Assembly (NCBI GenBank): GCA_013041745.1 | Contig: JABDRN010000040.1 | Location: forward strand, 1 to 45,636 | Source of the DNA: Gammaproteobacteria bacterium | GTDB taxonomy: Bacteria > Pseudomonadota > Gammaproteobacteria > SZUA-229 | Direction: 5' to 3' | DNA: 45,636 bases | Shown here: positions 3,985-43,489 of the stretch, one piece after another | How the letters are laid out: each line of letters starts with the position of its first letter | Position numbering within the stretch: position 1 is the first letter of the stretch | Program-made: the position numbers and the translations under genes | Notes under the pieces: model-generated | Seen by the model: only the letters and a program-made list of their open reading frames with translations | The model's database searches: none | Told to the model about the DNA's origin: nothing

Positions 3985-4163
3985 TGTTATTCTCTTTACG
4001 TAATATATCCGAGTGCGACAGGATCACACGATTGATTGCAGGTTAAGTTTATCGAGGCCATCATTGGCGTGTGTATTTACAGCTACGTGACTGCAATGCG
4101 AAATTGTATCAGTACCCGGTGCTCGCATGAAGATTCATGACCAGTCAACGGCATGCGGTAAGA

Positions 4164-7807: not shown

Positions 7808-7861
7808 CTCTTTATTTATATCTGATTATTGCAGCAGCAAAGTACTTGCTGCTGCAGCTAT

Positions 7862-9355: not shown

Positions 9356-9358
9356 TAA

Positions 9359-11083
9359 TTATCCGATGTTTCTTACCATGGTGCCGGCATTTTCAGCATT
9401 GCCACCACCCAAGGAGAGCGCTTCCTCCAGGTTAGCAGGTGCATCGAGTTTGAGCAGTTTATAGAGGTTTTTCAGTTGCGCGCGAAAAAGCTGATCAAAG
9501 TCATTCACACTTTCCGATGAATTCTTTTCACCGAACCACCAGAACCAGTCGGAGCCCTCACACACGGCCAGCTGACGCGTTGCAATCTCGACTTCTGCAT
9601 CATCCAGCACGCCGGCCGCCATGGTGTCATCGTATGCCATCTTTGCTTCAACCAGCCGGTCCCATGCACGGTTTTTATCGACCTCACCTATCCAGGTAGA
9701 AAATGAACCATATACCCAACTGCCGGCACAAAGCTTTTCTAACTGATGCGTTTTGACCTTCTTATTCAGTTTTGAAAAAGTAGTAGCCTTCACCAGTTTG
9801 TGACCAGATAAACGCTGATAGAGATGGTTTAAGAAATAATAGCCATTGTGCGGATAATATTCCCAGGCATTTTCACCATCGAGGATGACTGGTACCACGT
9901 GCCGGCCTGCACTGTTACCGAGGAAATCTGCGATGTTTTCCAGGTTATGCACCAGGTCATTGGCGGCATCTACTGAATTCATCTTACTGTACTCGAAACC
10001 GACCATGTCTGACAGGCCATCATCACGAAAGTACAGTTTCGCTTCATGCTCGTTCAATACATAGGGGTGGAACAACGCCCGCTTGCTATGCACTTTTTCC
10101 AGGTCATGTGTAGCAAGGTTCATACTATTACGCCATACGCCTTCACCGGAAGCAGTCCATTTAAAATCGAACTCTTCGATCATTGATATAGCATCTTCCG
10201 AGATCGCGCCTTCAGACAGCCAGATACCTTTTGGCCGCATACCAAAATAATGTTGAAAACAGTCTATGCCACGCTGGATATGCCAGCGCGAACGCTCTTC
10301 ACCACCAGGATAAGCATCATATGAAGGTGCCGGGTCATCTGGCTGCGCACAACGCATGTTCTCCATATCGTTTAACAGCGGTATGATAGGATGCCCGTAA
10401 GGTGTCATGGATATCTCTATCTGACCGTCTTCAGCCAGTTTGCGGTAACGGGGAATGAGACCGGAGATACAGTCATACATTAGTTCCAGCAGTGCCCGGC
10501 GATCCTCTTTATCGAAAAGCTGAGCCTTCTTGATCAGCATCTGCGAAGTTTCGGTCTGCTTCAGGGCATGACCGAGCCAGGCGATGTGATACCACACCAG
10601 TACATCGATGAAATACTGTGAATTCAGGTACTGCATGCAAACGGTATCCTGAATACCACATTCACCATCAGGAAACATGAACTTGAATGGCTTCAGCAGA
10701 TTTTTGAAAGCCGGGTAAGGGTCGATCATCTTCTCTGCGTTCGCTCGCTGGCAGTCACATAAAAGCTGGTAGCGTTCATCTGGCGCTTTAGGAACAGCGG
10801 TAGCACCTGATAACAGGTTGAGCATGGGGTCTTTCATGACCTTGCCATCATCCAGCCAGCCTTTCAGCTGCTGCGCATAGTCATCGAGCTGCTCTAGCAG
10901 AACCGGGGCAAAATTCACTACGACATGCATCTTCGGATGTGCTTCGAGATGCATCACCATGTCTTCGTAATCTTTTATCGCATGCAGGTAAACCCATGGC
11001 AATCTGTAATCACCATCGATCCCCTCCTGGTACCAGGGCTGGTGCATGTGCCAGCACAATACAAAATTTAGAGCCTTACTCAT
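9359..11083 (-). CDS. GH57-family glycoside hydrolase (alpha-amylase-like)
   Basis: A 574-residue GH57 enzyme acting on alpha-glucans; the exact reaction (amylase, 4-alpha-glucanotransferase or branching enzyme) cannot be settled by eye. The ordered GH57 motifs are visible: CWHMHQPWY near residue 10, DGQIEISMTPYGHP near 215, the nucleophile region GIWLSEGAI near 290, and VPVILDGENAWEYYP near 410 with the general-acid Asp. It sits between glgC (35 bases away) and malQ (3 bases) in the glycogen operon, so glycogen or maltodextrin is the likely substrate. No signal peptide is seen, so it should be cytoplasmic. Confidence 0.9.
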   Translation of the reverse strand: MSKALNFVLCWHMHQPWYQEGIDGDYRLPWVYLHAIKDYEDMVMHLEAHPKMHVVVNFAPVLLEQLDDYAQQLKGWLDDGKVMKDPMLNLLSGATAVPKAPDERYQLLCDCQRANAEKMIDPYPAFKNLLKPFKFMFPDGECGIQDTVCMQYLNSQYFIDVLVWYHIAWLGHALKQTETSQMLIKKAQLFDKEDRRALLELMYDCISGLIPRYRKLAEDGQIEISMTPYGHPIIPLLNDMENMRCAQPDDPAPSYDAYPGGEERSRWHIQRGIDCFQHYFGMRPKGIWLSEGAISEDAISMIEEFDFKWTASGEGVWRNSMNLATHDLEKVHSKRALFHPYVLNEHEAKLYFRDDGLSDMVGFEYSKMNSVDAANDLVHNLENIADFLGNSAGRHVVPVILDGENAWEYYPHNGYYFLNHLYQRLSGHKLVKATTFSKLNKKVKTHQLEKLCAGSWVYGSFSTWIGEVDKNRAWDRLVEAKMAYDDTMAAGVLDDAEVEIATRQLAVCEGSDWFWWFGEKNSSESVNDFDQLFRAQLKNLYKLLKLDAPANLEEALSLGGGNAENAGTMVRNIG

Positions 11084-11118
11084 CTTAAGATCCGTATTCG
11101 GTTACATTTGAAAAACAT

Positions 11119-12441
11119 CTAGGCAGATTCTTTCAACATCTCTTTATCGACGACATAGAGGTGCTGATCGAGCATCTCGGGCGTGACCAGGACGATACCG
11201 CTCTCGGTCACATGAAAACGCTTCCTGTCTTCTTCGATATCTTCGCCGATTATCGTACCATCTTCTATTCTGCATGCCTTGTCTATTATCGCACGGTTTA
11301 TACGGCAGTTTTTACCGATAGATACTTTTGGCAGAATAACACTATCCTTGATGGCAGTGCCGCGCTCGATCTCTGTGGCGAAGAAGATGACAGAACGTTT
11401 GACCCTGGCACCGGACAGGATACAACCGCCTGAGACCAGTGAATCGATAGCCTGGCCACGCACATTCTCATCATCGAAGATGAATTTTGCTGGTGGATGC
11501 TGTGTCTGGTATGTCCAGATTGGCCAGTCACGGGAATACAGGTTGAGCTCCGGTTCTACATCACACAGCTCTATGTTGGCCTTCCAGTATGAATCGATGG
11601 TACCCACATCGCGCCAGTAGGCAGCATTTCCATCAGCATCCTCGAACGGATAGGCATGGGCCGTACAGGTCGAGATACTCTTGGGCACAATGTCTTTACC
11701 GAAATCGTGAGCGGACTCTTTATCTTCCGCATCGGCGATCAGGCTGGCATAAAGATAGGCCGTGGAAAATATATAGATACCCATCGATGCCAGTGACTTG
11801 TCCGCTTTACCAGGGATCGTGTCCGGATCAGCCGGCTTCTCTGTAAACTTGGTAATCCGGTAATCAGTATCGATCGACATGACGCCAAATTCAGTGGCTT
11901 CTTCTCGTGGTACTTCGATGCAGCCGACAGTAAGATCAGAGCCTGTGCTCACATGCTGATACAGCATCTTCGAATAGTCCATGGTATAGATGTGGTCACC
12001 GCCCAGCACGATGACATTTTCAGGTTCGTGACGTCGGATGATATCGATATTCTGATACAGGGCATCGGCGGTACCGCGATACCACTCACTATCGACTCGT
12101 TGCTGTGCCGGGATAACCTCGACGAACTCACCAATCTCGGCACGCATAAATCCCCAGGCACGTTGCAGGTGCCTGATCAGGGAATGCGACTTGTACTGTG
12201 TCAGCACACCGATACGGCGCAGTCCTGAATTTACGCAATTCGATAATGCAAAATCGATGATGCGGTACTTACCGCCAAATGGCACGGCAGGCTTGGCACG
12301 CCATTTGGTCAGCCCCTTGAGCCTCGACCCCGAACCGCCGGCCAGCACCAGGACCAAGGTTTTACGAGTCAGTTCGCTGCCGGTGTTCGCATCGGTGTAA
12401 TAACGATAGTTTTTTGATTGTGTTTTCGTGGTATTGCTCAT
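11119..12441 (-). CDS. glgC: Glucose-1-phosphate adenylyltransferase
   Basis: Makes ADP-glucose from glucose 1-phosphate and ATP, the committed and usually allosterically controlled step of bacterial glycogen synthesis. The nucleotidyltransferase motif LVLAGGSGSRLKGLT is near residues 31-45, followed by KPAVPFGGKYRIIDFALSN. The fold ends in a left-handed beta-helix with VILPKVSIGKNCRINRAIID. Its 440 residues match the family (about 420-435). The start overlaps the glk stop by 4 bases, coupling sugar phosphorylation to ADP-glucose synthesis. Confidence 0.97.
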   Translation of the reverse strand: MSNTTKTQSKNYRYYTDANTGSELTRKTLVLVLAGGSGSRLKGLTKWRAKPAVPFGGKYRIIDFALSNCVNSGLRRIGVLTQYKSHSLIRHLQRAWGFMRAEIGEFVEVIPAQQRVDSEWYRGTADALYQNIDIIRRHEPENVIVLGGDHIYTMDYSKMLYQHVSTGSDLTVGCIEVPREEATEFGVMSIDTDYRITKFTEKPADPDTIPGKADKSLASMGIYIFSTAYLYASLIADAEDKESAHDFGKDIVPKSISTCTAHAYPFEDADGNAAYWRDVGTIDSYWKANIELCDVEPELNLYSRDWPIWTYQTQHPPAKFIFDDENVRGQAIDSLVSGGCILSGARVKRSVIFFATEIERGTAIKDSVILPKVSIGKNCRINRAIIDKACRIEDGTIIGEDIEEDRKRFHVTESGIVLVTPEMLDQHLYVVDKEMLKESA

Positions 12442-13433
12442 CTCTTTACCCGTTGTGTTTTAACTGCTTCTGACATAGCGCCGAGCACCCCTATTCGTTC
12501 ATCGGTGACCAGATAAACTGTTACCTGCTCGACCAGGTTACGCATCCTTCCCTTGTTAAGGTAAGCATGAATAAATTCTTCAGACTGCATCCGCTGCACC
12601 ATCTTGGCAGCTATACCGCCGGTGATATAGATGCCAGCAGATGGTTTAAATAACATCGCGATGTTGCCGATAAAAGATCCGTAGATCTGTACGAACAGGT
12701 TCATCGCCTCGTCCGCTGCCGCATTATCCAGCGACTGTTCATTTACCCAGCTGGCAGTGATCTCGTCACGCTGCAATTCATCGCCCCGCTCACCGGCACA
12801 AAACTCATAGAGTGAAACCAGGCCGCCGCCGGACAGGATCCTTTCATAAGAAACGTGGCCATGGCGCTCTCGTAAAAACTGCAACAGCCTGATCTGGGTA
12901 TCGTCCACCGGGGCAAAATCGACATGACCACCCTCGGTATCATAAGCACGCACTTCACCGGCATCATCCTGCGCCCATGCGACACCGAGCCCGGTTCCGG
13001 CACCTACTGCCACTCGAGTAGCATTATCGTTCAAATCAGCGGCATTTGAAATGCCTGCGTTCAAAACAATCTGATCTTTTTGCTGCAACTGACCAGTGCC
13101 AAGAGCAGAAGCCTGGAAATCATTCATAAATGACACACTTTTGAAACCGAAAGTGTCTTTCAATGCCTGTTTTTCGATGACCCAGGGTAAGTTGGTCAAT
13201 CGTGCAGAACTCTCGCTGACCAGCCCCGGTAGAGCAAGGACTAGTGACTCCGCCTGGCCGTTGGTCAAGCCACTGTCATCGATGAACGCTTTCAGTAATG
13301 CTTCAAAACTATCAAACTCACCACTGACGTAGCGTGACTCATACAATACCCTGCCCTGATCACCGACATCGGCATAGATCAACCGCGTTTTTGTACCACC
13401 GACGTCTGCCGCAATGAAACTCATTGCATCCAC
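12438..13433 (-). CDS. glk: Glucokinase
   Basis: Phosphorylates glucose with ATP to glucose 6-phosphate in the cytoplasm. The N-terminal phosphate-binding motif ADVGGTKTRLIYAD is at residues 9-22, FMNDFQASALG holds the glucose-contacting Asn/Asp, and VAVGAGTGLGVAW the second phosphate motif. At 331 residues it fits the bacterial Glk family (PF02685) rather than ROK kinases. It is the first gene of the minus-strand glycogen operon. Placing it with glgC and zwf suggests control of the split between storage and oxidation of glucose. Confidence 0.93.
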   Translation of the reverse strand: MDAMSFIAADVGGTKTRLIYADVGDQGRVLYESRYVSGEFDSFEALLKAFIDDSGLTNGQAESLVLALPGLVSESSARLTNLPWVIEKQALKDTFGFKSVSFMNDFQASALGTGQLQQKDQIVLNAGISNAADLNDNATRVAVGAGTGLGVAWAQDDAGEVRAYDTEGGHVDFAPVDDTQIRLLQFLRERHGHVSYERILSGGGLVSLYEFCAGERGDELQRDEITASWVNEQSLDNAAADEAMNLFVQIYGSFIGNIAMLFKPSAGIYITGGIAAKMVQRMQSEEFIHAYLNKGRMRNLVEQVTVYLVTDERIGVLGAMSEAVKTQRVKR

Positions 13434-26473: not shown

Positions 26474-27373
26474 CTACTTCCTGGAGAACGCGGGTATGAT
26501 CGATTCCATGTTCTCGATCGCCTTGACGTGATCAGAACCCAGAACATAAGCGCCCAGTGATTCGAGTTTCTCTCTATGCGCTTCTGACAACTCGCCTCCA
26601 AACATGAACGGGATTTTCATCGACTTGATGTTCTTCTTCAGTTCTACCTCGACATCTTCCTGCCATAATTCGGTTTTGGTGCCTGATAGTAAAACCGCGG
26701 AGACATCGGTTCGCTCTACCACTTTCGACAGCTGCGAAGGCGGCAGGTTAGTTCCCAGGTAGAGGATCTGGTAACCATGTCCGATAGCTGCAATACAGAA
26801 CAGCAGGATTCCTAATTCATGGAATTCTCCAGGCAGGCATGAAACCAGTATCTTGTTGCCGCGGCTGCGATGTGATTCATGGTGCAGACGTGCACCGAGC
26901 TTATTTCTCAGGAAAGCAGAGAAGAAGTGCTCTTCTGCGATACCGGCCTCCCTGTCTTGCCAGCGCTCTCCGAGCTGGTGTAAAACCGGAATAATGACCT
27001 CCTGGGTAACCATGTCGACAGGATATATGGATAATGCTTCGTTATACGTGCTGTCCAGGTTTTGTTCATTGAAGCTCTCGATCGATTTCAGCATGCGTTG
27101 CTGGTAGACAGCCCAGTGGCCCTCGACTTCAGAGCTCGCTATGGCGCTCAACTCCGGATTTTTTATAATCCTGATGGCTTCGCTGATAGTATGATTCGAC
27201 TTAAGAAGTTTTACTATTTCTTTAATCAAATCAATATCTTCGCCACTATATAGACGATGACCCTTGGCCGTACGACTGGGTTTTAACAGGCCGTAGCGGC
27301 GTTCCCAGGCACGTAATGTGGTGGTCGGCACACCAGTTAATTCAGATATTGCTCTAATCGGATAATGGTTCAT
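26474..27373 (-). CDS. MerR-family B12-dependent light-responsive regulator (CarH/LitR type)
   Basis: DNA-binding repressor of 299 residues from the start I chose. Residues 4-72 form a MerR helix-turn-helix (ISELTGVPTTTLRAWERRYGLL). Residues about 85-165 form the B12 four-helix cap, and the rest a Rossmann cobalamin domain. Photoreceptor signatures are present: W138-x9-E148-H149, as in Thermus CarH, and E183-x-H185-x2-G188, with H185 as lower cobalt ligand. Such proteins bind operators with adenosylcobalamin in the dark and release them in light. The frame runs upstream to 27415 into the operator region; ATG 27373 has AGGA 12 bases before it and starts the conserved part. Confidence 0.88.
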   Translation of the reverse strand: MNHYPIRAISELTGVPTTTLRAWERRYGLLKPSRTAKGHRLYSGEDIDLIKEIVKLLKSNHTISEAIRIIKNPELSAIASSEVEGHWAVYQQRMLKSIESFNEQNLDSTYNEALSIYPVDMVTQEVIIPVLHQLGERWQDREAGIAEEHFFSAFLRNKLGARLHHESHRSRGNKILVSCLPGEFHELGILLFCIAAIGHGYQILYLGTNLPPSQLSKVVERTDVSAVLLSGTKTELWQEDVEVELKKNIKSMKIPFMFGGELSEAHREKLESLGAYVLGSDHVKAIENMESIIPAFSRK

Positions 27374-27392
27374 ATTTAGTGTCATTCCTAAA

Positions 27393-27458
27393 TTGTTATA
27401 CACATTGTACAACAATTTACTTGTACATTACAGGATTTTTTGTATAATTGATGTACAA
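27393..27458. promoter_or_regulatory. Divergent promoter with TTGTACA-type operators (carH-phrB / DUF523 operon)
   Basis: Copies of the same motif crowd this gap: ATTGTACAACAA at 27405-27415, TTGTACA at 27421-27427, and TTGTATAATTGATGTACAA at 27440-27458. A plus-strand promoter is embedded, with TTGTAC (27421-27426), 16 bases and a perfect TATAAT (27443-27448), so a bound protein would cover both boxes. The natural candidate is the CarH-like protein encoded beside it. Confidence 0.65.
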
Positions 27459-32938: not shown

Positions 32939-32993
32939 TTCACAAAAATTTCACTGCTATTTGACATCCATTTCACACCAGCATGTCCATAAT
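32939..32993 (+). promoter_or_regulatory. Four 11-bp-phased TTCAC-type repeats with following -10-like box
   Basis: TTCACA (32939), TTCACT (32950), TTGACA (32961) and TTCACA (32972) start exactly 11 bases apart, one helical turn. Ten bases later comes CATAAT (32988-32993). The same array with the same order of variants is found at 40247-40301. Such tandem repeats are typical of OmpR/PhoB-type regulators; the half-site equals the CreB tag TTCAC-N6-TTCAC. The predicted start near 33000 would give a 215-base leader to the gene at 33215. Confidence 0.65.
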
Positions 32994-32998
32994 TAGTC

Positions 32999-33018
32999 TT
33001 GTACAAGTATATGTACAA
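32999..33018. promoter_or_regulatory. TTGTACA-type operator in the divergent gap
   Basis: TTGTACAA, 4 bases, then TGTACAA: two copies of the motif also found at the carH promoter. It overlaps a possible minus-strand promoter for the HNH-like unit (TTGTAC at 33018-33013, 17 bases, TAATTA at 32995-32990) and the predicted start site of the plus-strand promoter at 32988. Confidence 0.55.
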
Positions 33019-33153
33019 CTAGATTGACTGTATAAAGATCGCTTGTTATCTTATTATTATTGCTTAACTTGCTGATATATATAAGGTTTATAAACGTCAA
33101 TCAGGTGTTACATAAATACTCTATTGACTTGGTCAAAAAGAATTGTAGAATTA

Positions 33154-33183
33154 TTGTACACCTTTTGTATAATTAATGTATAA
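33154..33183 (+). promoter_or_regulatory. Promoter of the lipid operon with TTGTACA/TTGTATAAT operator
   Basis: TTGTACA (33154-33160) and TTGTATAATTAATGTATAA (33165-33183) reproduce the DUF523 promoter element at 27440-27458 with few changes, including TATAAT at 33168-33173. A TTGTAG 19 bases before the -10 is the only -35-like box, a MerR-style long spacer. The leader to ATG 33215 is about 35 bases. Confidence 0.6.
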
Positions 33184-33214
33184 TTATTTTCACAACATAG
33201 AAATCGAGGTAATA

Positions 33215-34258
33215 ATGCCAATAACAGCACAAACAGCACTGCAATGGAGCGAACAGGGTTATGTACCGGACAGGGTCATACGTCTCGGTATACACCGCCT
33301 GCTTGCAGAACGTCTCATAGAGATTCAGCACAATGACTGCGAAGCCATGGCCGAGACTGAACATTCCTTTGTAAAGAGCATGAAGGAATCCCCGATCGCA
33401 CTGCTACCAGAAAAAGCTAATGACCAGCATTATGAAGTGCCTGCCGAATTTTTCGACCTGGTATTGGGTAAATACAGAAAGTACAGCTGTTGCTACTGGA
33501 CGAAAGAAACCACTTCACTCGATGATGCAGAAAAAAATGCATTAAACGAGACGTGCAAACATGCAAAGATTGAAAATGGCCAGGACATACTGGAATTGGG
33601 CTGCGGCTGGGGATCTCTAAGTCTGTGGATGGCTGAAAACTTTCCTGAGAGCAATATCACTGCTGTCTCCAATTCAAATTCACAACGACAGCATATAGAA
33701 GCGACTGCTGCTGAACGTAATATCAAAAACCTTGAGATCATCACCTGTGATATGAATGATTTCGACACCGATGCTAAATATGATCGCGTTGTTTCTGTCG
33801 AGATGTTTGAACATATGCGTAACTGGCAAACCCTCTATCAGAAGATAAATCGCTGGCTGAAAGACGATGGCCTGTTCTTCAAGCATATATTCGTCAATCG
33901 TGCTGTGCCTTACCTGTTCCTGGAAGTTGATGACAGTGACTGGATGAGCCGCCACTTTTTTAGTGGTGGCATGATGCCGAGCGACGACCTTGCGCTGCAC
34001 TTTCAACAGGAACTGACACTGCAAAGACAATGGCGTTGGCAGGGTCAGCATTATGAGAAAACGTCAAATGCGTGGCTCGCTAATATGGATAAGAACAAGG
34101 AGAAAGTCTGGCCGATATTAGAAAAAACCTACGGCGCAGATCAGGCGCAGAAATGGTGGATGAGATGGCGCATGTTCTTTATGGCATGTGCTGAACTTTT
34201 CGCTTATAACAACGGGCAGGAATGGTACGTTTCACATTACCTGTTCTCCAGCAAATAG
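33215..34258 (+). CDS. Cyclopropane-fatty-acid-synthase-like methyltransferase
   Basis: 347 residues from ATG 33215, which has GAGGT 6 bases upstream; the upstream extension to 33176 lies in the promoter. It is a class I methyltransferase of the CFA/mycolic-acid type: NDQHYEVPAEFFDLVLGKYRKYSCCYW, motif I ILELGCGWGSLSLWMAENFPES, ITCDMNDF and VSVEMFEHMRNW. It lacks the C-terminal GGF-x-RNS signature of true CFA synthases (present in the gene at 38959), so it probably methylates another lipid or an unsaturated acyl chain without ring closure. The UfaM-type methyltransferase of furan fatty acid synthesis is one possible relative. First gene of an eight-gene operon. Confidence 0.88.
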   Translation: MPITAQTALQWSEQGYVPDRVIRLGIHRLLAERLIEIQHNDCEAMAETEHSFVKSMKESPIALLPEKANDQHYEVPAEFFDLVLGKYRKYSCCYWTKETTSLDDAEKNALNETCKHAKIENGQDILELGCGWGSLSLWMAENFPESNITAVSNSNSQRQHIEATAAERNIKNLEIITCDMNDFDTDAKYDRVVSVEMFEHMRNWQTLYQKINRWLKDDGLFFKHIFVNRAVPYLFLEVDDSDWMSRHFFSGGMMPSDDLALHFQQELTLQRQWRWQGQHYEKTSNAWLANMDKNKEKVWPILEKTYGADQAQKWWMRWRMFFMACAELFAYNNGQEWYVSHYLFSSK

Positions 34259-34272
34259 ATCAGGACTTTGAA

Positions 34273-34839
34273 GTGAACAAATCGATCATTACCAACTTTC
34301 TACTGTTCCAGCTCGGCTGGTTTGCCTGCGTGCTTGGCGGTGCCTATGGTTATCCCCTGCTCGGCAGCCTGGTAGCCCTTGTCATCATTACTTACCACTG
34401 CTACCGAGCTCCTGATATAGTTCAGGAAAGCCGTCTGCTATTGCTGGCGCTCATAGTCGGACTGATCTTTGAATCGATTATCACATCACAGGGCCTTGCC
34501 AGATACAGCAATGGCCAGGTACTCGACTTCATCGCACCGCTATGGATGATCTTGATGTGGCCGCTATTTGCAACCACCCTGAACCTGTCGATGCGCTGGA
34601 TGAAGGGACTCGCTCCCATATTTGTAGCTATTGCCGGTGCTGTATTTGCCCCGCTTGCCTATTATGCCGGCAGCCAGCTCGGTGCAGTAAGCTACGACGA
34701 TCAAATAGTTTCACTTTCGGTGATTGCGATTGCATGGGCATTACTGCTTCCATCGCTGGTGATCATGTCGATGAAACTTGATGGCTATAACACATCACCA
34801 GTTAAATCAGCAGTAAAGGAGTACCCGCAACATGTTTAA
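34273..34839 (+). CDS. DUF2878 multi-spanning membrane protein
   Basis: 188 residues from GTG 34273, with AGGA 7 bases before it; an ATG at 34222 would overlap the preceding gene by 37 bases and is less likely. About six hydrophobic segments are visible (for example FLLFQLGWFACVLGGAYGYPLLGSLVALVIITYH and LLLLALIVGLIFESII). The PLWMILMWPLFATTLNLSMRWM stretch is typical of DUF2878. Function unknown; the family often accompanies CFA-type methyltransferases and DUF1295 proteins. Confidence 0.82.
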   Translation: MNKSIITNFLLFQLGWFACVLGGAYGYPLLGSLVALVIITYHCYRAPDIVQESRLLLLALIVGLIFESIITSQGLARYSNGQVLDFIAPLWMILMWPLFATTLNLSMRWMKGLAPIFVAIAGAVFAPLAYYAGSQLGAVSYDDQIVSLSVIAIAWALLLPSLVIMSMKLDGYNTSPVKSAVKEYPQHV

Positions 34840-35620
34840 TATGGAGATATTTTTCTACACCCTGGGCGTGATGTTCATATTCGCCGTGGCGTTATGGGTA
34901 GTCAGCCGGATCAAACACGACGTTGGCATAGTAGATAGTTTCTGGTCACTGCTGATACTTGCCGCTGGCTTATGCTTCCTGTTTTTTACGGATAATGTAA
35001 TAACAGAAAAACATATCATCATCACCCTGCTGCTTGCAGCCTGGGCGATACGCTTGTCAGCACACATCACATGGCGGAACTGGGGACAGGAAGAAGACAG
35101 CCGTTACCAGGAGATAAGAAAGAACAACGAACCCAACTTCGAGTTTAAAAGTCTCTATATCGTATTCCTGTTACAGGCTTTCCTGGCCCTGATCGTAGCA
35201 TTGCCACTGATGAGCATCTATTCAAGTGACTCTGCCATATCAACTCTGGATTATATTGCATTGACACTCTGGCTATTCGGTATGTTCTTTGAGGCAGTCA
35301 GCGACATGCAGCTGGCACGTTTCAAAGCGTCAAACAGTAACCGGGGCAAAGTACTGAACACCGGGCTCTGGCGATACAGCCGTCACCCTAACTACTTCGG
35401 TGAATTCTGTATCTGGTGGGCGTTCTTCCTGTTTGCCTTAGCTTCTGGTCATTGGTGGAGTATCGTATCACCGCTGTTAGTGTCGGTACTATTATTGAAA
35501 GTATCCGGTGTAAGCCTGCTCGAGAGCACCATCTCTGAGCGACGTCCTAAGTATGCCGAGTATCGCAAAACGACAAACGCGTTTTTTCCCTGGTTTCCAA
35601 AAAAATTTCTTGAACTATGA
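34832..35620 (+). CDS. DUF1295 membrane protein (steroid 5-alpha-reductase-like)
   Basis: 262-residue integral membrane protein related to steroid 5-alpha reductases and isoprenylcysteine methyltransferases. The C-terminal signature NTGLWRYSRHPNYFGEFCIWW (near residue 172) is the cofactor-binding region of the family, and at least six hydrophobic segments are visible. It overlaps DUF2878 by 8 bases and ends in an ATGA overlap with the next gene. Likely a lipid-modifying reductase or methyltransferase; the substrate is unknown. Confidence 0.9.
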   Translation: MFNMEIFFYTLGVMFIFAVALWVVSRIKHDVGIVDSFWSLLILAAGLCFLFFTDNVITEKHIIITLLLAAWAIRLSAHITWRNWGQEEDSRYQEIRKNNEPNFEFKSLYIVFLLQAFLALIVALPLMSIYSSDSAISTLDYIALTLWLFGMFFEAVSDMQLARFKASNSNRGKVLNTGLWRYSRHPNYFGEFCIWWAFFLFALASGHWWSIVSPLLVSVLLLKVSGVSLLESTISERRPKYAEYRKTTNAFFPWFPKKFLEL

Positions 35621-36336
35621 GTCTGAACAATGAGCATGGGTTAAATCTTATGAAGAATATATTTCAACAGTTCATTACGGGCTGCAACGGACTAAAACAT
35701 AGCATATATAGAGTTGCCCTGGTGGTATCAGTGGGCATTTTTAACTCTGCACAGGCCAGTAACAGCGTAGACAAGAGCTGGGATTTCAAAGTTTACCTGG
35801 ATGGCGATGAGATAGGTTTTCATAACTTCTCGGTGGTGCACAAAGAAACTCATCAGGAGATCTACAGCAGCGCTCGTTTTGATGTCAAATTTCTGTTTTT
35901 TAATGCATATAGCTATGAACACGACAACGTCGAGCACTGGCGAGGCCAGTGTCTGAAAAGCATCAATGCTGTAACCAATGATAATGGTGATAGATACAAC
36001 GTTTCAGGACAAGTCGATAATGACGGATTTATCGTTGAGACACTAGACAACAAAAGCAGCTATCAGCCGTGCATCAAGACCTTTGCTTACTGGGACCCCG
36101 ATTTTCTCAAGGAGAGCAGATTACTCAACTCACAGACGGGAGAAATGGTCAAAGTGAAAAGCCAGTTCATCGGCAATGAAACCATGACACACATGGGCAA
36201 AGAGACCGAAGCCAGACGTTACCGTCTGACCGGAGAAAATTTACAGATCGACCTGTGGTACTCAGATGACGACCAATGGCTGGCACTGGAATCACTAACC
36301 GAAGGCGGCCGTGTGGTCCGATACGAAATACCATAA
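35617..36336 (+). CDS. Exported DUF6134-like protein
   Basis: 239 residues from the ATGA-coupled start; a second start at 35650 would give a cleaner signal peptide ending SAQA. The mature part is beta-rich, with SWDFKVYLDGDEIGFHNFSVVHKE and, near the end, YRLTGENLQIDLWYSDDDQWLALES. These resemble DUF6134/DUF3108-type periplasmic proteins thought to bind lipids or polymers. It lies inside the lipid operon, so periplasmic handling of the product is a guess. Confidence 0.72.
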   Translation: MSLNNEHGLNLMKNIFQQFITGCNGLKHSIYRVALVVSVGIFNSAQASNSVDKSWDFKVYLDGDEIGFHNFSVVHKETHQEIYSSARFDVKFLFFNAYSYEHDNVEHWRGQCLKSINAVTNDNGDRYNVSGQVDNDGFIVETLDNKSSYQPCIKTFAYWDPDFLKESRLLNSQTGEMVKVKSQFIGNETMTHMGKETEARRYRLTGENLQIDLWYSDDDQWLALESLTEGGRVVRYEIP

Positions 36337-36352
36337 CATGGATTATATAACT

Positions 36353-36919
36353 ATGAAAAACATTATATTGCTATCACTGACGATGTTTCTAAGCGCATGC
36401 GGGAGTCAGAATGTGAAACCGATAAACACTGTAGATTATGTCGACCTTGATAAATTCATGGGGGACTGGTATGTCATCGCAAACATACCAACGTTTATCG
36501 AAACCGATGCCTATAACGCTATAGAGACGTATGCGATGAATGATGATGGCACTATCGCAACAACGTTCACCTTCCATGACAGCTCACCTGATGGTGAGCT
36601 AAAAAAATATGAACCAACGGGTTTCATCGTCGATGAGCAATCGAATGCCCTGTGGGATATGCAGTTCATCTGGCCTTTCAAAGCTGAGTATCGTGTCATA
36701 TACCTTGATGACGATTATGAGACCACCATCATCGGACGCACAAAGCGTGACTATGTCTGGCTGATGTCACGGCAATCAAGCATCGACGAAGACAGTTACG
36801 CATCGCTGCTCGCATATATCGAATCCCAGGGTTACGACATAAGCAAAGTACAGAAAGTACCACAGGTATGGAAAGAAGAAACAACAGGCATCGATAACAA
36901 GCAGGAGAACATGCAATGA
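36353..36919 (+). CDS. Outer-membrane lipocalin lipoprotein (Blc-like), copy 2
   Basis: 188 residues from ATG 36353, giving a compact lipoprotein signal with lipobox LSAC; ATG 36338 is also possible. The lipocalin signature DLDKFMGDWYVIANIPTFIE and late YVWLMSRQSSIDE are clear. It is only moderately similar to copy 1 at 30650, so not a recent duplication. The stop overlaps the start of the FAD oxidoreductase (ATGA). Confidence 0.92.
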   Translation: MKNIILLSLTMFLSACGSQNVKPINTVDYVDLDKFMGDWYVIANIPTFIETDAYNAIETYAMNDDGTIATTFTFHDSSPDGELKKYEPTGFIVDEQSNALWDMQFIWPFKAEYRVIYLDDDYETTIIGRTKRDYVWLMSRQSSIDEDSYASLLAYIESQGYDISKVQKVPQVWKEETTGIDNKQENMQ

Positions 36920-38196
36920 AGATCGCCATCATCGGCAGTGGCATCGCGGGGAATGTTGCCGCCTATCATCTGAACAAAGAACACGATATCACATTATTCG
37001 AACAGAATAGCCATATCGGTGGCCATACGCATACCCACTCTATCGAAGATGCAGCGGGAGATCTGAACATAGACACTGGTTTTATCGTGTTGAACGACAG
37101 GACCTATCCTAACTTCATCAAATTACTGGAAGACCTCGAGGTCGATATCCAGGAGACCGAGATGAGTTTCAGCGTCAAATGCGAAAATACCGGACTCGAA
37201 TATAATGGTAATAACCTGAATACACTGTTCGCCCAACGCAGCAACCTGTTCAGACCCGTGTTCTACAGGATGATCTCTGATATCTTGCGTTTCAACCGCG
37301 AAGCGACTGAAGCCATCAACAGCACAAGCGTGGATCAGAGCCTGGGTGAATTCCTTGATAACGGAAATTACAGTGAAATCTTCATCAACAAATACATCGT
37401 TCCTATGGGTGCAGCTATCTGGTCGAGCAAGCCAGAAGACATGTTCGCTTTCCCTGCGAGATTTTTCTTCAGGTTTTTCCTCAACCATGGTCTGCTCAGT
37501 GTCAATAACAGGCCACAGTGGTATGTCATCAAGGGCGGTTCAAATAGCTATGTAAAAAAACTCATCGCGGATTTCGAGGACAAGATACGGACCAATTGCC
37601 CGGTTGAAAACATCGTTCGCTATGATGACCATGTTGAAGTACATAGCCGCAGCCATGGTATCGAAAGATTTGATTATGTCTTTATCGCCTCGCACAGCGA
37701 CCAGGCATTAAATATGCTGCAGCATCCTTCTGCTCAGGAACACGAAACATTGTCGGCTATCGAGTATCAAAAAAATGAAGCAGTTCTACATACTGACAGT
37801 TCACTATTACCGGTCAGGAATAAAGCCTGGGCTTCCTGGAATTACCATATTCCTGAAGATGCCAGATCAAATGTCGCGTTAACCTACAATATGAACATCC
37901 TGCAGGGTTTAAAAACGGATAACACCTATTGTGTAACACTTAACTATACTGACCAGATCGATGCGGCTAAGATATTAAAGACAATAGAATACCATCATCC
38001 GATCTTCACACCGAAGAGTATCGTTGCGCAGGAAAACCACCGCCTTGTCAATGGCACCAGCAGAACCTACTATTGTGGTGCTTACTGGCGAAACGGGTTC
38101 CATGAAGACGGAGTGGTCAGCGCACTGAATGCTTTATCACATTTCACACAGGACATTAGCAATGAAAAAGAGCTGCCTTTACGTCGGGCAAGTTAG
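36916..38196 (+). CDS. FAD/NAD(P)-dependent amine-oxidase-like oxidoreductase
   Basis: 426-residue flavoprotein. The dinucleotide motif MKIAIIGSGIAGNVAAYHL opens the protein, followed by the EQNSHIGGHTHTHS loop; ALTYNMNILQG and ENHRLVNGTSRTYYCGAYW form the C-terminal FAD part. The family is regularly found with DUF1365 and CFA synthase. In Rhodobacter sphaeroides a related flavoprotein (UfaD) desaturates methylated acyl chains on the way to furan fatty acids, so a lipid acyl-chain desaturase is the best guess. It overlaps both neighbours. Confidence 0.9.
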   Translation: MKIAIIGSGIAGNVAAYHLNKEHDITLFEQNSHIGGHTHTHSIEDAAGDLNIDTGFIVLNDRTYPNFIKLLEDLEVDIQETEMSFSVKCENTGLEYNGNNLNTLFAQRSNLFRPVFYRMISDILRFNREATEAINSTSVDQSLGEFLDNGNYSEIFINKYIVPMGAAIWSSKPEDMFAFPARFFFRFFLNHGLLSVNNRPQWYVIKGGSNSYVKKLIADFEDKIRTNCPVENIVRYDDHVEVHSRSHGIERFDYVFIASHSDQALNMLQHPSAQEHETLSAIEYQKNEAVLHTDSSLLPVRNKAWASWNYHIPEDARSNVALTYNMNILQGLKTDNTYCVTLNYTDQIDAAKILKTIEYHHPIFTPKSIVAQENHRLVNGTSRTYYCGAYWRNGFHEDGVVSALNALSHFTQDISNEKELPLRRAS

Positions 38197-38962
38197 GCAT
38201 CGCCGCTTTACCCCAAAGTCACATCAGTTCAGTTACAAACTGTTCCTGATGTACCTGGACCTGTCAGAGCTGCCATCTGTTTTCGATCGCTTCTGGCTAT
38301 GGTCTATCGAAAAAGCGAATATCGCTACGTTTCGCCGTAAGGATCATCTGGGTGATAAAGATATTCCCCTCGATACCTGTGTGCGAAATCATATCGAGGA
38401 TGAGACCGGCCGTCGACCAACAGGGCCGATTCGTCTGTTGACACATCTTAGCTACTATGGCTTCAGGTTTAATCCTGTAAGCTTCTATTACTGTTACGAT
38501 GAAGAAGATGAAAATCTGGATTTCATTGTAGCCGAAGTCAATAACACGCCATGGGGTGAACAGTACTGCTATGTACTTGACTCCAATGACAACCAGTCTG
38601 TGGACAAACTAACTGGCAACAAAACAAAACTACATCGTTATTTTGAAAATAAACGTTTCCATGTATCGCCATTCATGCCCATGGATATGCAATATGACTG
38701 GCGCTTCTCAACACCAGCAGAAGCATTGTCGGTACATATGGAAAACTATCAGCATGATAAAAAAGTTTTTGATGCAACATTAAAGCTCAAGCAACGCCAG
38801 ATCAGCGGGAAAAATCTAGCCATGGCTTTATTACAGTTCCCGTTCATAACCATGAAAATAGTGGCAGCGATCTATTACCAGGCACTATTGATATGGCTAA
38901 AAAGAATACCCTTTGTTAACCACCCAAAAGTCGAGGCACCAGAGTCGGTGAAATCAGCATGA
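38162..38962 (+). CDS. DUF1365 domain protein
   Basis: 266 residues from ATG 38162 (AGGA 9 bases before it), inside the end of the FAD gene. Typical DUF1365 motifs are visible: CLYVGQVRHRRFTPKSHQFSYKLFLMYLDLSEL, LTHLSYYGFRFNPVSFYYCYD and FHVSPFMPMDMQYDWRFSTP. The conserved order FAD oxidoreductase-DUF1365-CFA synthase is found in many Proteobacteria. Biochemical role unknown. The stop overlaps the next start (ATGA). Confidence 0.92.
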   Translation: MKKSCLYVGQVRHRRFTPKSHQFSYKLFLMYLDLSELPSVFDRFWLWSIEKANIATFRRKDHLGDKDIPLDTCVRNHIEDETGRRPTGPIRLLTHLSYYGFRFNPVSFYYCYDEEDENLDFIVAEVNNTPWGEQYCYVLDSNDNQSVDKLTGNKTKLHRYFENKRFHVSPFMPMDMQYDWRFSTPAEALSVHMENYQHDKKVFDATLKLKQRQISGKNLAMALLQFPFITMKIVAAIYYQALLIWLKRIPFVNHPKVEAPESVKSA

Positions 38963-40245
38963 AGTCGAATACTATCGCACTTACCAGTCCACAAGATTCA
39001 ACATCAACATATCGCTGGATCGATCAGTTTGCAAAAAAGATATTCCTGGCAAAGTTCAGTGAAATAAAACATGGCACTATCACGCTGAAAGAAGGACATC
39101 ACGAATATGTATTCGGGGAACACGATTGTGACTTCAATGCACATGCAACCGTCATCGTACATGAAGCAAGCTTCTACAGTGATATCATTTTCGGTGGTAC
39201 AGTGGGTTCAGGTGAAGCCTATATGGCACGGAGCTGGGATTGTCATGAACTAACCGATCTGGTAAGAATCATCCTGCGAAATGAACACGTATTAAACTCT
39301 ATCGATGGTGGCTTCGGCAAACTGATGCTGCCATTACATAAAGCATTTCACTTGCTGCATCGCAATTCCCTGTCAGGCAGCAGAAAGAACATCGAAGCTC
39401 ACTACGACCTCGGAAACGATATGTTCGAACAGTTCCTGGATCCGACCATGATGTACTCAAGCGGTATATTTGAACATCAGGATATGAACATGCAGCAGGC
39501 CAGCATAGCCAAGCTGGACAGGATCTGTCAGAAATTGCAGCTGGATGAAAACGATCATCTTCTGGAGATCGGCAGCGGCTGGGGCGGATTCGCAATATAT
39601 GCAGCCAAGAACTATGGTTGCGAGGTGACAACGACAACTATCTCACGTCAACAGTTTGAGTATGCCGAACAGAGGATAAAGGATGAAGGCCTCGCTGACA
39701 GGATAACACTACTCTGTGAAGACTACCGGAACCTCACTGGCCAGTATGACAAACTCGTCTCTATCGAGATGATCGAGGCCGTCGGTCATGCCTACTACAA
39801 AAACTATTTCCAGCACTGCAGTAAGCTGCTTAAACCTGAAGGTATGATGTTACTTCAGTCTATCACCATCGCAGATCAACGTTATGACGCGGCCAGCAAA
39901 GAAGTTGATTTCATACAACGTTATATATTCCCTGGTGGCTCGCTACCTTCGGTGAATGCGATCGCTAAGAATGTTGCCGAATATACCGATATGCGTTTCT
40001 ACCAGCTGGAAGACATCGGTGCGCATTATGCCACTACCCTGGCCAAATGGCGCGAACGTTTCTTCAATAATATCGAAAACATACAGAGGCTGGGTTACTC
40101 GGAGACATTCACTCGTATGTGGGATTTCTATCTTTGCTACTGCGAAGGCGGCTTCAGAGAAAATTCGATCGGTACTATACAGTTGTTATTAACAAAACCT
40201 CTTTGTCGACGTGAGCCTGCATTAAATTTTAAAAATAGTATGTAA
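38959..40245 (+). CDS. cfa: Cyclopropane-fatty-acyl-phospholipid synthase
   Basis: Adds a methylene from SAM across a cis double bond of membrane phospholipid acyl chains, or a related methylation. 428 residues (E. coli Cfa has 382). Visible motifs: NIEAHYDLGNDMFEQFLDPTMMYSSGIF, motif I LLEIGSGWGGFAIYAA, SIEMIEAVGHAYY with the conserved Glu, and the C-terminal CEGGFRENSIGTIQLLL. Last gene of the lipid operon; the next regulatory array starts 2 bases after its stop. Confidence 0.94.
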   Translation: MKSNTIALTSPQDSTSTYRWIDQFAKKIFLAKFSEIKHGTITLKEGHHEYVFGEHDCDFNAHATVIVHEASFYSDIIFGGTVGSGEAYMARSWDCHELTDLVRIILRNEHVLNSIDGGFGKLMLPLHKAFHLLHRNSLSGSRKNIEAHYDLGNDMFEQFLDPTMMYSSGIFEHQDMNMQQASIAKLDRICQKLQLDENDHLLEIGSGWGGFAIYAAKNYGCEVTTTTISRQQFEYAEQRIKDEGLADRITLLCEDYRNLTGQYDKLVSIEMIEAVGHAYYKNYFQHCSKLLKPEGMMLLQSITIADQRYDAASKEVDFIQRYIFPGGSLPSVNAIAKNVAEYTDMRFYQLEDIGAHYATTLAKWRERFFNNIENIQRLGYSETFTRMWDFYLCYCEGGFRENSIGTIQLLLTKPLCRREPALNFKNSM

Positions 40246-40246
40246 A

Positions 40247-40301
40247 TTCACATAATTTTCACATCTGATTGACGCTGCCTTCACATCGGCATGGATAAAC
40301 T
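40247..40301 (+). promoter_or_regulatory. Second array of four 11-bp-phased TTCAC-type repeats with -10-like box
   Basis: TTCACA (40247), TTCACA (40258), TTGACG (40269) and TTCACA (40280) start exactly 11 bases apart. Ten bases later comes TAAACT (40296-40301). The order of variants (third repeat TTGAC) and the GCATG directly after the last repeat are the same as at 32939-32993. It lies upstream of the DUF4397 gene at 40348; the OmpR-type regulator at 41515 is the likely binder. Confidence 0.7.
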
Positions 40302-40347: not shown

Positions 40348-41409
40348 ATGAAATTAAACAGAAGCAAACTAATCGCTAGTAGCGTCATTATGTTCGCAAC
40401 ACTGATGACAGGTTGCAGCGGTTATGACACCGGCACAGATACAAACTTCTCATTAGACTTCAAGGGTCAGAGCGACGCCGCTGCGTTAACTGCTGATGAA
40501 TACCAGATAATTGTGGTCGCTGGTGACGGCACTGCAAATTCAGCCTATGATTCCGCTACAGCTGATATGATTGGCTTTACCGGACAAAAACTGCCGTTAC
40601 TCGCTGTCAATACCGTCAATTCGACAACACAGGACGCTTCGCCAGAAAAGTTAGCAGCCTACACCGATACAACCCAGGTGGACCAATATAGCTCGGGTGG
40701 AGTTGATCAATACCAGGACGACAGCTGGCGCCAGGGTCGTCCATTTATCACCCGATGCCGGAGCAGTAGAAGTGTTTGCTTCTAGTGATGCTTTGGCATC
40801 AGGTGTTGAGATAATCGATTCTTTTAGCTGTATAGAGACTGATGCGACAGACAGCATCAGTTATTCAGATGTCCCAGCAGATGATTATACTCTTGATCTT
40901 GCTGCCGCTTATACCAGTATCGGAAGAAGCAGCTTACCGATAGCGATATCCAGTGTGCAATTGAATATAGCTTCTGGTTACACTTTAGTTGCTGCAGGTT
41001 ATTTTTCTACAGGATATCCCGTATTCGACCTGCTGGCTACTGCAGACAGTAACCGCTCAATCGTAACCCAGGCAAGCGTCAAGCTTGTCCATGGTGCACC
41101 ACTGGCCGCTACTGTTGGTGTCTTTGTTACACCAGCGGATGATTTCAGCAAAAACGAAGTAGAGAGCGCTGCCACCGGCGCACCATTACTGGATGTTTTC
41201 ACTCTTGCTGCAATGACCGATTATGTGCCTTTTCCACCAGGAGATTATGAGATCGGCGATGCAACGAAATACGATACAGGAATAGCTGCAATCAATATTG
41301 CAGGTTTCAACCTGGCAGCACAGGTTCAGTAGCAACAGTGATCGCAAATGAGCCGGTTAGCGGCGGTGACCAAGCTGATTTCGATCTATTTATATTAGTC
41401 AACCAGTAA
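40348..41409 (+). pseudogene. DUF4397 lipoprotein gene with two compensating frameshifts
   Basis: Starts with a strong GGGAGG site and a lipoprotein signal (lipobox MTGC near residue 23). The first frame runs to a stop at 40785. DUF4397 sequence (GARVVHLSPDAGAVEVFASSDAL, later ASVKLVHGAPLAATVGVF) continues in the next frame from about 40728 to a stop at 41332. The last part (GSVATVIANEPVSGGDQADF) is back in the first frame and ends at 41409. An extra base near 40728 and an extra CA near 41320 would explain it; together they add 3, and the whole span is 354 codons. Either assembly errors or a real broken gene. Intact, it would be an outer-membrane or cell-surface lipoprotein. Confidence 0.75.
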
Positions 41410-41514
41410 TTGAGAGACAGTGTAATATTAACAACTTGAAACAGATGACCGGCTAGGCCTGAGACCCACAGGTCATTATTATTTTACTAAACAACCATAT
41501 TATAACGGTATGCG

Positions 41515-42219
41515 ATGAATCCAGGCGAAGCAAAGAGTGTATTACTGATCGAAGACCATGCAGATATTGCAGAGATGGTTGGCGCTTACCTGGAAAACAG
41601 GGATTACATCGTCGACTACGCTGCTGATGGCATCACTGGTTTACACCTTGCAGTCAGTAACGAGTATGACGCTATTATCCTCGACCTGATGCTTCCGGGT
41701 ATGGACGGTCTCGAGGTATGCCAGAAGATTCGAGATGATGCAAAAAGTGATGTGCCGATCATCATGCTAACCGCAAGAGACACATTGGACGACAAGATTT
41801 CTGGTCTCGATAAAGGTGCGGACGATTACCTGATCAAACCATTTGCCATACAGGAACTGGAAGCACGTGTGCGGTCACTTATCAGACGATATTCCGGCGA
41901 CATCAAAAAAGAGATAATCACTGTAGGTGATTTATCCATAGACACTTCGACACTCAAAGTTCAGCGCGGAGACAAAGATCTGGCGATTACACCCATAGGC
42001 CTGAAGATACTGTCGGTGCTGATGCGCGCATCTCCGGCTGTGGTCAGCCGCAGAGAACTGGAACGTCAGGTATGGGGAGATATCCTGCCCGATAGCGACA
42101 CGCTGCGCAGCCATCTATACAACCTGCGAAAGATCGTCGACAAACCGTTCGAGAAGAAAATCCTGGTGACCGTGCAAGGCAATGGTTTCAAGATCATCGA
42201 TTCCAATGAATCCGCATAG
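41515..42219 (+). CDS. OmpR-family response regulator
   Basis: 234 residues. The receiver domain (about 9-125) has LLIEDHADIAEMVGAYL with the acidic pair, LDLMLPGMDGLEVC with the phosphoacceptor Asp, and KPF with the conserved Lys. The winged-helix domain (about 135-230) includes LRSHLYNLRKIVDKPFEKKILVTVQGNGFKI. It overlaps the kinase gene. The two phased repeat arrays (32939 and 40247) are of the type such regulators bind, and one lies just upstream of the preceding gene. Confidence 0.94.
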   Translation: MNPGEAKSVLLIEDHADIAEMVGAYLENRDYIVDYAADGITGLHLAVSNEYDAIILDLMLPGMDGLEVCQKIRDDAKSDVPIIMLTARDTLDDKISGLDKGADDYLIKPFAIQELEARVRSLIRRYSGDIKKEIITVGDLSIDTSTLKVQRGDKDLAITPIGLKILSVLMRASPAVVSRRELERQVWGDILPDSDTLRSHLYNLRKIVDKPFEKKILVTVQGNGFKIIDSNESA

Positions 42220-43489
42220 AGGTCTGATCCATAGGATAAATCGAGCCTTTATCGTACAGGCGTTGTTTATCAGCATCGCAGCATTACTCAGTGTATTCTT
42301 CGCTAAAGTGGTCCTCGAAGAAACACTTATCAAGGAAGCCATCAAGCAGGAGGCTGAATATTTCTGGCAGCGATATCAATCTGATGAAAGTTTTCCGCTT
42401 CCTGATACGCAGAACCTGACCGGTTATTTTGATATCGAAAAATTACCCGATGATATAAGAACAGGATTACCACTGAGCGATGGATTCCACGAGAGCATCG
42501 AGCAACATATCGTGGTATACAAATCCAGGCAAGGTGACAATAACCTCTATCTGCTGTTTTACCGTGACCAGGTGGATTCCCTGGCGATGTATTACGGCCT
42601 GTTCCCGTTAACCCTGATACTGATATTCCTCTACACGACGTTATGGTTTTCCTATCGCTTCAGCCGTCGCATGGTATCGCCCGTCAGCTGGCTGGCAAGC
42701 CAGGTCAACAACATCGACTTCAAATCGAACGAGATATCCCCGATAAAGCTCAATGAGATCCCATTTGAGACTGATACCGAGATTCAGCTGCTCGCTAACT
42801 CCATCGTACACCTCGGTGAAAGGGTGGATAAATTTATCGAGCGAGAAAGAAACTTTACCCGTGATGCCAGCCATGAGTTAAGAAGTCCGCTAACCGTCAT
42901 CCGTATCGCAACCGATATGTTACAGAGTGAACAGTCTTTGTCTGCACTCGCGACAAGCAGCCTGCAGAAGATAAGACGCGCTGCTGATGACATGGCAGAT
43001 CTTACCGAAGCGTTCCTGCTGCTGGCGAGAGAGTCAGATGATGCCCTGACCATTGACTCGGTAAATGTAAACGATATCGTACATGAAGAAGTCGACAGGG
43101 CCGAGCTGTTTAACCGGGTGAAGAAACTGCCCATTTCTGTTAACGAACAGAGCCAGCTAGAGATACATGCTTCTGATAAAGTATTGTCGGTGTTACTCGG
43201 CAACCTGATCAGAAACGCTATCCTGTATACAGAAACAGGCACGATACAGGTTACCGTAACAGCAATAAGCGTCATCATCGAAGATAGCGGTGTCGGCATG
43301 AGCAAGGAAGAGGTCGACAATATTTTCATGCCATATTACCGCGCGAAAAACGGTAACAATGTCGGTCATGGCGTCGGGCTGACAATAGTGAAACGCCTGT
43401 CAGAACGATTTAACTGGCCACTCAGAGTAAAAAGCTTTCCCGGTGAAGGCACGCGTATCGAAGTCATCTTCAACAACGCTGAGTTATAA
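42206..43489 (+). CDS. Sensor histidine kinase (OmpR-system partner)
   Basis: 427 residues from ATG 42206, which overlaps the regulator's stop; an in-frame ATG at 42182 is also possible. TM1 (FIVQALFISIAALLSVFFAKVVL) and TM2 (LFPLTLILIFLYTTLWFSYRF) enclose a periplasmic sensor of about 100 residues, then HAMP and the HisKA box FTRDASHELRSPLTVIRIATDML. The HATPase domain has GNLIRNAILYTETG, IEDSGVGMS and GHGVGLTIVKRL. The input signal is not evident; the periplasmic domain is not one I recognise. Confidence 0.93.
   Translation: MNPHRGLIHRINRAFIVQALFISIAALLSVFFAKVVLEETLIKEAIKQEAEYFWQRYQSDESFPLPDTQNLTGYFDIEKLPDDIRTGLPLSDGFHESIEQHIVVYKSRQGDNNLYLLFYRDQVDSLAMYYGLFPLTLILIFLYTTLWFSYRFSRRMVSPVSWLASQVNNIDFKSNEISPIKLNEIPFETDTEIQLLANSIVHLGERVDKFIERERNFTRDASHELRSPLTVIRIATDMLQSEQSLSALATSSLQKIRRAADDMADLTEAFLLLARESDDALTIDSVNVNDIVHEEVDRAELFNRVKKLPISVNEQSQLEIHASDKVLSVLLGNLIRNAILYTETGTIQVTVTAISVIIEDSGVGMSKEEVDNIFMPYYRAKNGNNVGHGVGLTIVKRLSERFNWPLRVKSFPGEGTRIEVIFNNAEL

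Follow-up and report, generated by a model that had tools for sequence, protein, structure and literature searches.

Related regulatory systems

Parts of the locus examined here recall several regulatory systems described in other bacteria. In Pseudomonas, the response regulator ColR recognizes a box of the form (T/C)(T/C)NA(C/G)NN(T/C)TTTTT(C/G)AC (PMC2689224, PMC4074579), and the tag of CreB/BlrA is TTCACN6TTCAC (PMC4689548). The furan-lipid genes of Rhodobacter, whose expression rises when ChrR is lost, are connected with the sigmaE-ChrR singlet-oxygen regulon (PMC7380195). The LitR regulon of Pseudomonas mendocina includes ufaM, phrB, and folXEM, with TGTACA as the published LitR half-site (PmlR2; PMC9758184), and the operators of Myxococcus and Thermus CarH consist of three to four 11-bp direct repeats (PMC8156234).

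The window analyzed here is a 45,636-nt stretch of contig JABDRN010000040.1 from the gammaproteobacterial assembly GCA_013041745.1. It contains two TTCAC arrays, which are very probably the operators of a ColR-type regulator encoded at 41515 that would activate a lipid operon, a DUF4397 gene together with the two-component genes, and fol, fasciclin, and SOUL genes elsewhere in the genome. At its other end (1510 to 13433), the window carries what appears from its sequence to be a glycogen/maltodextrin gene cluster (glgP, glgA, glgB, malQ, GH57, glgC, and glk).

Array sequence and promoter geometry

Both arrays lie on the forward strand and share the four-repeat pattern TTCAC-N6-TTCAC-N6-TTGAC-N6-TTCAC. 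Array 1 (32939 to 32976) has repeats starting at 32939, 32950, 32961, and 32972, separated by AAAAAT, TGCTAT, and ATCCAT; array 2 (40247 to 40284) has repeats starting at 40247, 40258, 40269, and 40280, separated by ATAATT, ATCTGA, and GCTGCC. The pitch is thus exactly 11 bp, and the positions, the spacing, and the TTGAC variant in the third repeat are all as the initial annotation had described them. Array 1 is predicted to serve as the ColR-type box of P1, the first promoter of the lipid operon, and is conserved in the related genome G029, and array 2, which precedes the DUF4397 gene and the two-component genes, is conserved in G029, G042, and G051. Apart from these two, the window contains no match to even three TTSAC repeats at 11-bp pitch.

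For a wider comparison, we gathered 34 arrays, those of the window and others at related loci in many gammaproteobacterial families, which were picked by repeat score alone and never by their −10 element. TTGAC mostly occupies repeat 3 in these arrays and TTCAC mostly the other positions, so the asymmetry first spotted in the window is a conserved property. The GCATG that follows the last repeat is a different matter; it is present in both window arrays, as claimed, but is missing from the folX copy described below and from the G029 orthologues, and we regard it as incidental rather than as a shared element.

The −10-like box proposed in the initial annotation proved to be real and its placement more regular than had been claimed. 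In 26 of the 34 arrays, a TANNNT element begins exactly 16 nt from where the fourth repeat starts, and any other offset accounts for three at most (binomial P of about 1e-37, a value that treats related sequences as independent and is hence too strong). In the window, CATAAT (32988 to 32993, a weak match, in P1) and TAAACT (40296 to 40301, after array 2) both stand on the forward strand at this offset. No −35 box is found at the usual distance from the conserved −10. The TTGAC of repeat 3 was considered for this role and rejected, as the conserved −10 is 21 nt away, which is too far. OmpR-family activators such as PhoB or PmrA carry out class II activation, in which the regulator substitutes for the −35 element. 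Because a −35 box is lacking at the usual distance, and with the repeats standing in its place at a fixed spacing from the −10 as at class II promoters of this family, we take the geometry to indicate class II activation: the regulator would replace the −35 and presumably contact sigma.

A ColR-type regulator at 41515

The gene at 41515 to 42219 (forward strand) encodes an OmpR-family response regulator that, from its kinship and recognition helix, is the predicted binder of both arrays. The OmpR-type pair of which it is part had been labeled an orphan, a term that does not apply to what is a regulator-kinase pair (41515 and 42182). We compared the regulator with Pseudomonas ColR proteins defined by their gene neighbors, namely, a PP0903-type methyltransferase, an InaA kinase, and PAP2 (PP0900), none of which occurs in the window. 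Identity to these synteny-defined ColR proteins is about 50% (48 to 54%), versus 31.5% to Escherichia coli CreB and 34% to PhoB. In a quick tree, the 41515 regulator and synteny-defined ColR form one clade (99% SH-aLRT), within which the former is sister to the Pseudomonas ColR group rather than inside it, in a clade holding most of the lipid-operon-linked members. The recognition helix, PDSDxLRxH, is nearly the same in the two and is absent from CreB and PhoB. The assignment of the 41515 regulator as ColR-type, and not CreB-like, is therefore well supported by sequence comparison.

The binding sites point in the same direction. All seven published P. putida ColR footprints resolve into TT(C/G)AC repeats at 11-bp pitch, with a signal far stronger than at other spacings, and the PP0900 and PP0737 sites contain three or more such repeats; the half-site and pitch of the window arrays match these footprints in sequence. 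Further, in Pseudomonas and Alloalcanivorax, an array with the same −10 offset precedes the methyltransferase gene downstream of colRS. The window system thus resembles ColRS in clade, recognition helix, half-site, pitch, and membrane-related targets. It differs in that the Pseudomonas sites have a T-track between half-sites, whereas the window arrays are four regular repeats without one, and in that the targets predicted here are photo-oxidative and lipid genes.

The arrays might instead be bound by another OmpR-family regulator, and CreB and PhoB are the obvious candidates, as the CreB tag has the same half-site and spacing and PhoB also uses 11-bp repeats (the pho box has two 7-nt repeats with a 4-nt spacer). 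The resemblance to the CreB tag, pointed out in the initial annotation, holds for the half-site but does not extend to the protein. The 41515 regulator scores 131.1 bits against the CreB equivalogue model, below its cut-off of 273; no creD was seen; and the genome yielded no CreB equivalogue, its best CreB-like protein being a PhoB equivalogue with phoR, phoU, and pstB as neighboring genes. PhoB, for its part, is present in many genomes of the same genus that have no arrays. We therefore rejected both candidates and, going by these two, consider it improbable that an OmpR-family regulator other than the ColR-type one is the binder.

The partner kinase

The adjoining gene, at 42182 to 43489 (forward strand), encodes the partner histidine kinase, which is only 27 to 29% identical to ColS. 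In an alignment with Pseudomonas ColS, the ExxE motif (FExRE), on which zinc and iron sensing by ColS depends, is replaced by RDQVDSLAM. The periplasmic segment of the kinase is conserved within its own clade (FPLPDTxNLTGY and GFHE) and is predicted to form a PAS/Cache-like domain. An AlphaFold model of this sensor domain (pLDDT of 83) gave no Foldseek match below an E value of 1e-3, and VIA-align matched it to Mlp24 with a Z score of 10.8 (root mean square deviation [rmsd] of 2.2 over 93 residues) and to CpxA with a Z score of 6.0 (rmsd of 3.2 over 85 residues). These moderate structural matches make a PAS/Cache-like fold a lead rather than an assignment.

Co-occurrence of arrays and regulator

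Among 95 relatives, arrays were found in G029, G042, G051, and G053 and once, weakly, in G037, and close orthologues of the 41515 regulator (73 to 87% identity) were found in exactly the first four of these genomes (P of about 2e-6, overstated in significance because related genomes are treated as independent). In a sample of 368 other genomes drawn from across the class, 7 carry arrays, and all 7 have a homologue of the 41515 regulator at an E value of ≤1e-45, compared with 84 genomes overall (P of about 3e-5, overstated for the same reason). An array is often found within a few kilobases of the regulator gene, adjacent to it or in the interval that separates it from the lipid operon. The same regulator clade adjoins this operon in Kangiella, Thioalkalivibrio, Thiotrichaceae, and others, and a relative of the system is present in Kangiella aquimarina.

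The association is looser in places. In G037, whose genome is 92% complete, the array precedes a litR-lipid operon and no close regulator orthologue was found (best identity, 41%), and in G266 an array is accompanied by a weak regulator homologue. Some members of the regulator clade (many Xanthomonadaceae, and Kangiella) have no array in the 20 kb fetched; the box is therefore not a constant feature of that clade. Two distant genomes (L099 and L152) have a SulP-type transporter gene next to the regulator, and close to this gene stands an array whose −10 is at the usual offset; targets therefore differ between lineages. In Aquimonas (L117), a gene for a DUF4397-like protein is also located downstream of the regulator-kinase pair. 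A second regulator copy in G053 (contig C131) and the DNA around it are almost the same as in an Arenicellales MAG, so that G053 may be contaminated.

LitR and the second promoter

A LitR/CarH-type MerR regulator with B12-binding domains is encoded on the reverse strand at 26474 to 27415. TGTAYA repeats occur in three places on the forward strand: a TGTATA/TGTACA pair with a pitch of 11 bp in the interval from litR to a DUF523 gene (27441 to 27457, also in G029), a TGTACA-N6-TGTACA pair directly downstream of the P1 −10 element (33000 to 33017), and three repeats at 11-bp pitch (33155 to 33182, conserved in G029) that form a LitR/CarH-like operator over the start of a second promoter, P2. The latter, TTGACT-N16-TAGAAT (33124 to 33151, forward strand), has the equivalent TTGACA-N16-TAATAT in G029. 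All three sets of repeats are likely LitR sites, and most likely the lipid operon has a second control input at P2, exerted by LitR.

With litR in the same window, it could be asked whether LitR also reads the TTCAC arrays, and there are reasons to ask: CarH operators have the same 11-bp pitch and a similar number of repeats, the CarH consensus nAnnTnnACAn is partly fitted by TTCACA, and furan-lipid and fol genes belong to LitR regulons. There is also a likeness to LitR/CarH light regulons in the presence of a LitR gene, TGTACA sites, and shared targets (furan-lipid genes, the fol operon, and phr). The published LitR half-site, however, is fitted by the separate TGTAYA repeats next to litR and upstream of the lipid operon. 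The TTCAC arrays differ from these, do not fit that half-site, and do not follow the distribution of LitR. G011, a 98% complete genome of the same genus, encodes LitR at 87% identity and yet shows neither an array nor a close regulator; it has kept litR and its neighbors, with no lipid operon on the stretch fetched. Conversely, G042 and G053 carry arrays and have no LitR match at an E value of ≤1e-40. Arrays also occur at colRS promoters in Pseudomonas, and the fixed −10 spacing suits an activator, not a repressor. As both distribution and site type disagree, we rejected LitR as the array binder and judge this reading very unlikely.

Genome-wide copies and the predicted regulon

The draft genome (2.97 Mb, about 96% complete) was searched with exact and one- or two-mismatch patterns. 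Three exact copies of the array were found on both strands together, against about 1e-5 expected from base counting, and a reversed control pattern gave none. The array is thus not frequent at random places in the genome, in agreement with the initial view that its architecture is very unlikely to be a product of chance. The third exact copy precedes a folX-folE-folM operon (names assigned by reading the translations, without a family search). A promoter-like copy with one mismatch (C20) precedes a gene for a fasciclin-domain lipoprotein, and a more degenerate fifth copy (TTCAC, TTTCT, TTCAC, TTCAC, and then TATATT) precedes a gene for a SOUL heme-binding protein. Another one-mismatch copy (C41) is intragenic and is also present in G029, again within coding sequence; we rejected it as a regulatory array, as it is probably a coding coincidence. 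Although C41 speaks in its favor, chance, or a repeat element without a regulatory role, is scarcely credible for the arrays as a whole given their number, their promoter position, and the conservation of arrays and −10 spacing across families.

Returning to the ColR-type regulator as the binder, its predicted regulon includes the lipid operon and the gene before the regulator, as initially proposed, but appears to be wider, with the fol operon, the fasciclin protein, and the SOUL protein added. These targets recur behind arrays: the lipid operon or a litR-lipid operon in about six genomes, DUF4397 genes in five, folX in three that represent as many families, SOUL genes likewise in three, and fasciclin genes in two or three.

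The lipid operon comprises eight genes on the forward strand, encoding a CMAS-family methyltransferase (33176 to 34258, translation probably starting at 33215), DUF2878 (34222 to 34839), DUF1295 (34832 to 35620), and DUF6134 (35617 to 36336) proteins, a lipocalin (36311 to 36919), an FAD amine-oxidase-type oxidoreductase (36916 to 38196), a DUF1365 protein (38129 to 38962; the domain is found in UfaO), and a cyclopropane-fatty-acid-synthase-like methyltransferase (38959 to 40245). With regard to the furan fatty acid (Ufa) pathway of UfaM, UfaD, and UfaO, the operon contains CMAS methyltransferases, an FAD oxidoreductase, and a DUF1365 protein, which by family are candidate counterparts. The gene behind array 2 encodes a DUF4397 lipoprotein (40348 to 41332, forward strand), and its reading frame is broken relative to that of its relatives. 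Over 40348 to 41412, it is spread over two frames and broken again near 41320, whereas relatives have a single frame of about 474 to 526 codons; either sequencing error or decay could account for the breaks.

The gene content suggests a regulon for photo-oxidative and membrane protection. In this respect, it overlaps in kinds of genes (a fatty-acyl methyltransferase and a DUF1365 protein) with the sigmaE-ChrR regulon of Rhodobacter (PMC7380195), whereas control here would be exerted by a two-component system. A search of the genome for ChrR (TIGR02451) gave only cupin-like matches below the family cut-off and thus no sign of ChrR, although a divergent one might escape such a search.

Proposed mechanism and implications

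We propose that the kinase at 42182 phosphorylates the regulator at 41515, dimers of which would then align head to tail on the TT(C/G)AC half-sites, 11 bp apart along one side of the double helix. Of these half-sites, the last would occupy the −35 position, 11 bp before the TANNNT −10 element, and the bound regulator would recruit sigma70 RNA polymerase to promoters that have no −35 of their own. Control of the DUF4397 and two-component genes by their own regulator would constitute positive feedback, and the eight-gene lipid operon, the folX-folE-folM operon, and the genes for the fasciclin lipoprotein and the SOUL heme-binding protein would be further targets. That the pair at 41515 to 43489 activates the lipid operon and the gene preceding the pair had been suggested in the initial annotation, and this suggestion is supported at the sequence level by the co-occurrence of arrays and regulator, the adjacency of their genes, the phylogeny, the ColR footprints in the literature, and the fixed promoter geometry.

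What looks new is that a ColR-type regulator would, by our inference, control photo-oxidative and lipid genes, which as a rule are placed under sigmaE-ChrR or LitR; in the open literature, within the incomplete coverage of our search, no report ties ColR-type regulators to such genes. More tentatively, it is possible, though we would not favor it strongly, that a ColR-derived system with its own periplasmic sensor took over the photo-oxidative/furan-lipid response, elsewhere controlled by sigmaE-ChrR, in several gammaproteobacterial families, beside the B12 photoreceptor LitR, and that its signal is a membrane or periplasmic photo-oxidation product rather than a metal.

The analysis predicts a controller for a lipid operon that had no previous regulator assignment and yields a promoter code, four TTSAC repeats at 11 bp followed by TANNNT at +16, that is searchable in many genomes. 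If the predicted regulon is true, a response credited until now to sigmaE-ChrR and LitR would gain a two-component route, and the ColR family would have been reused with a different sensor.
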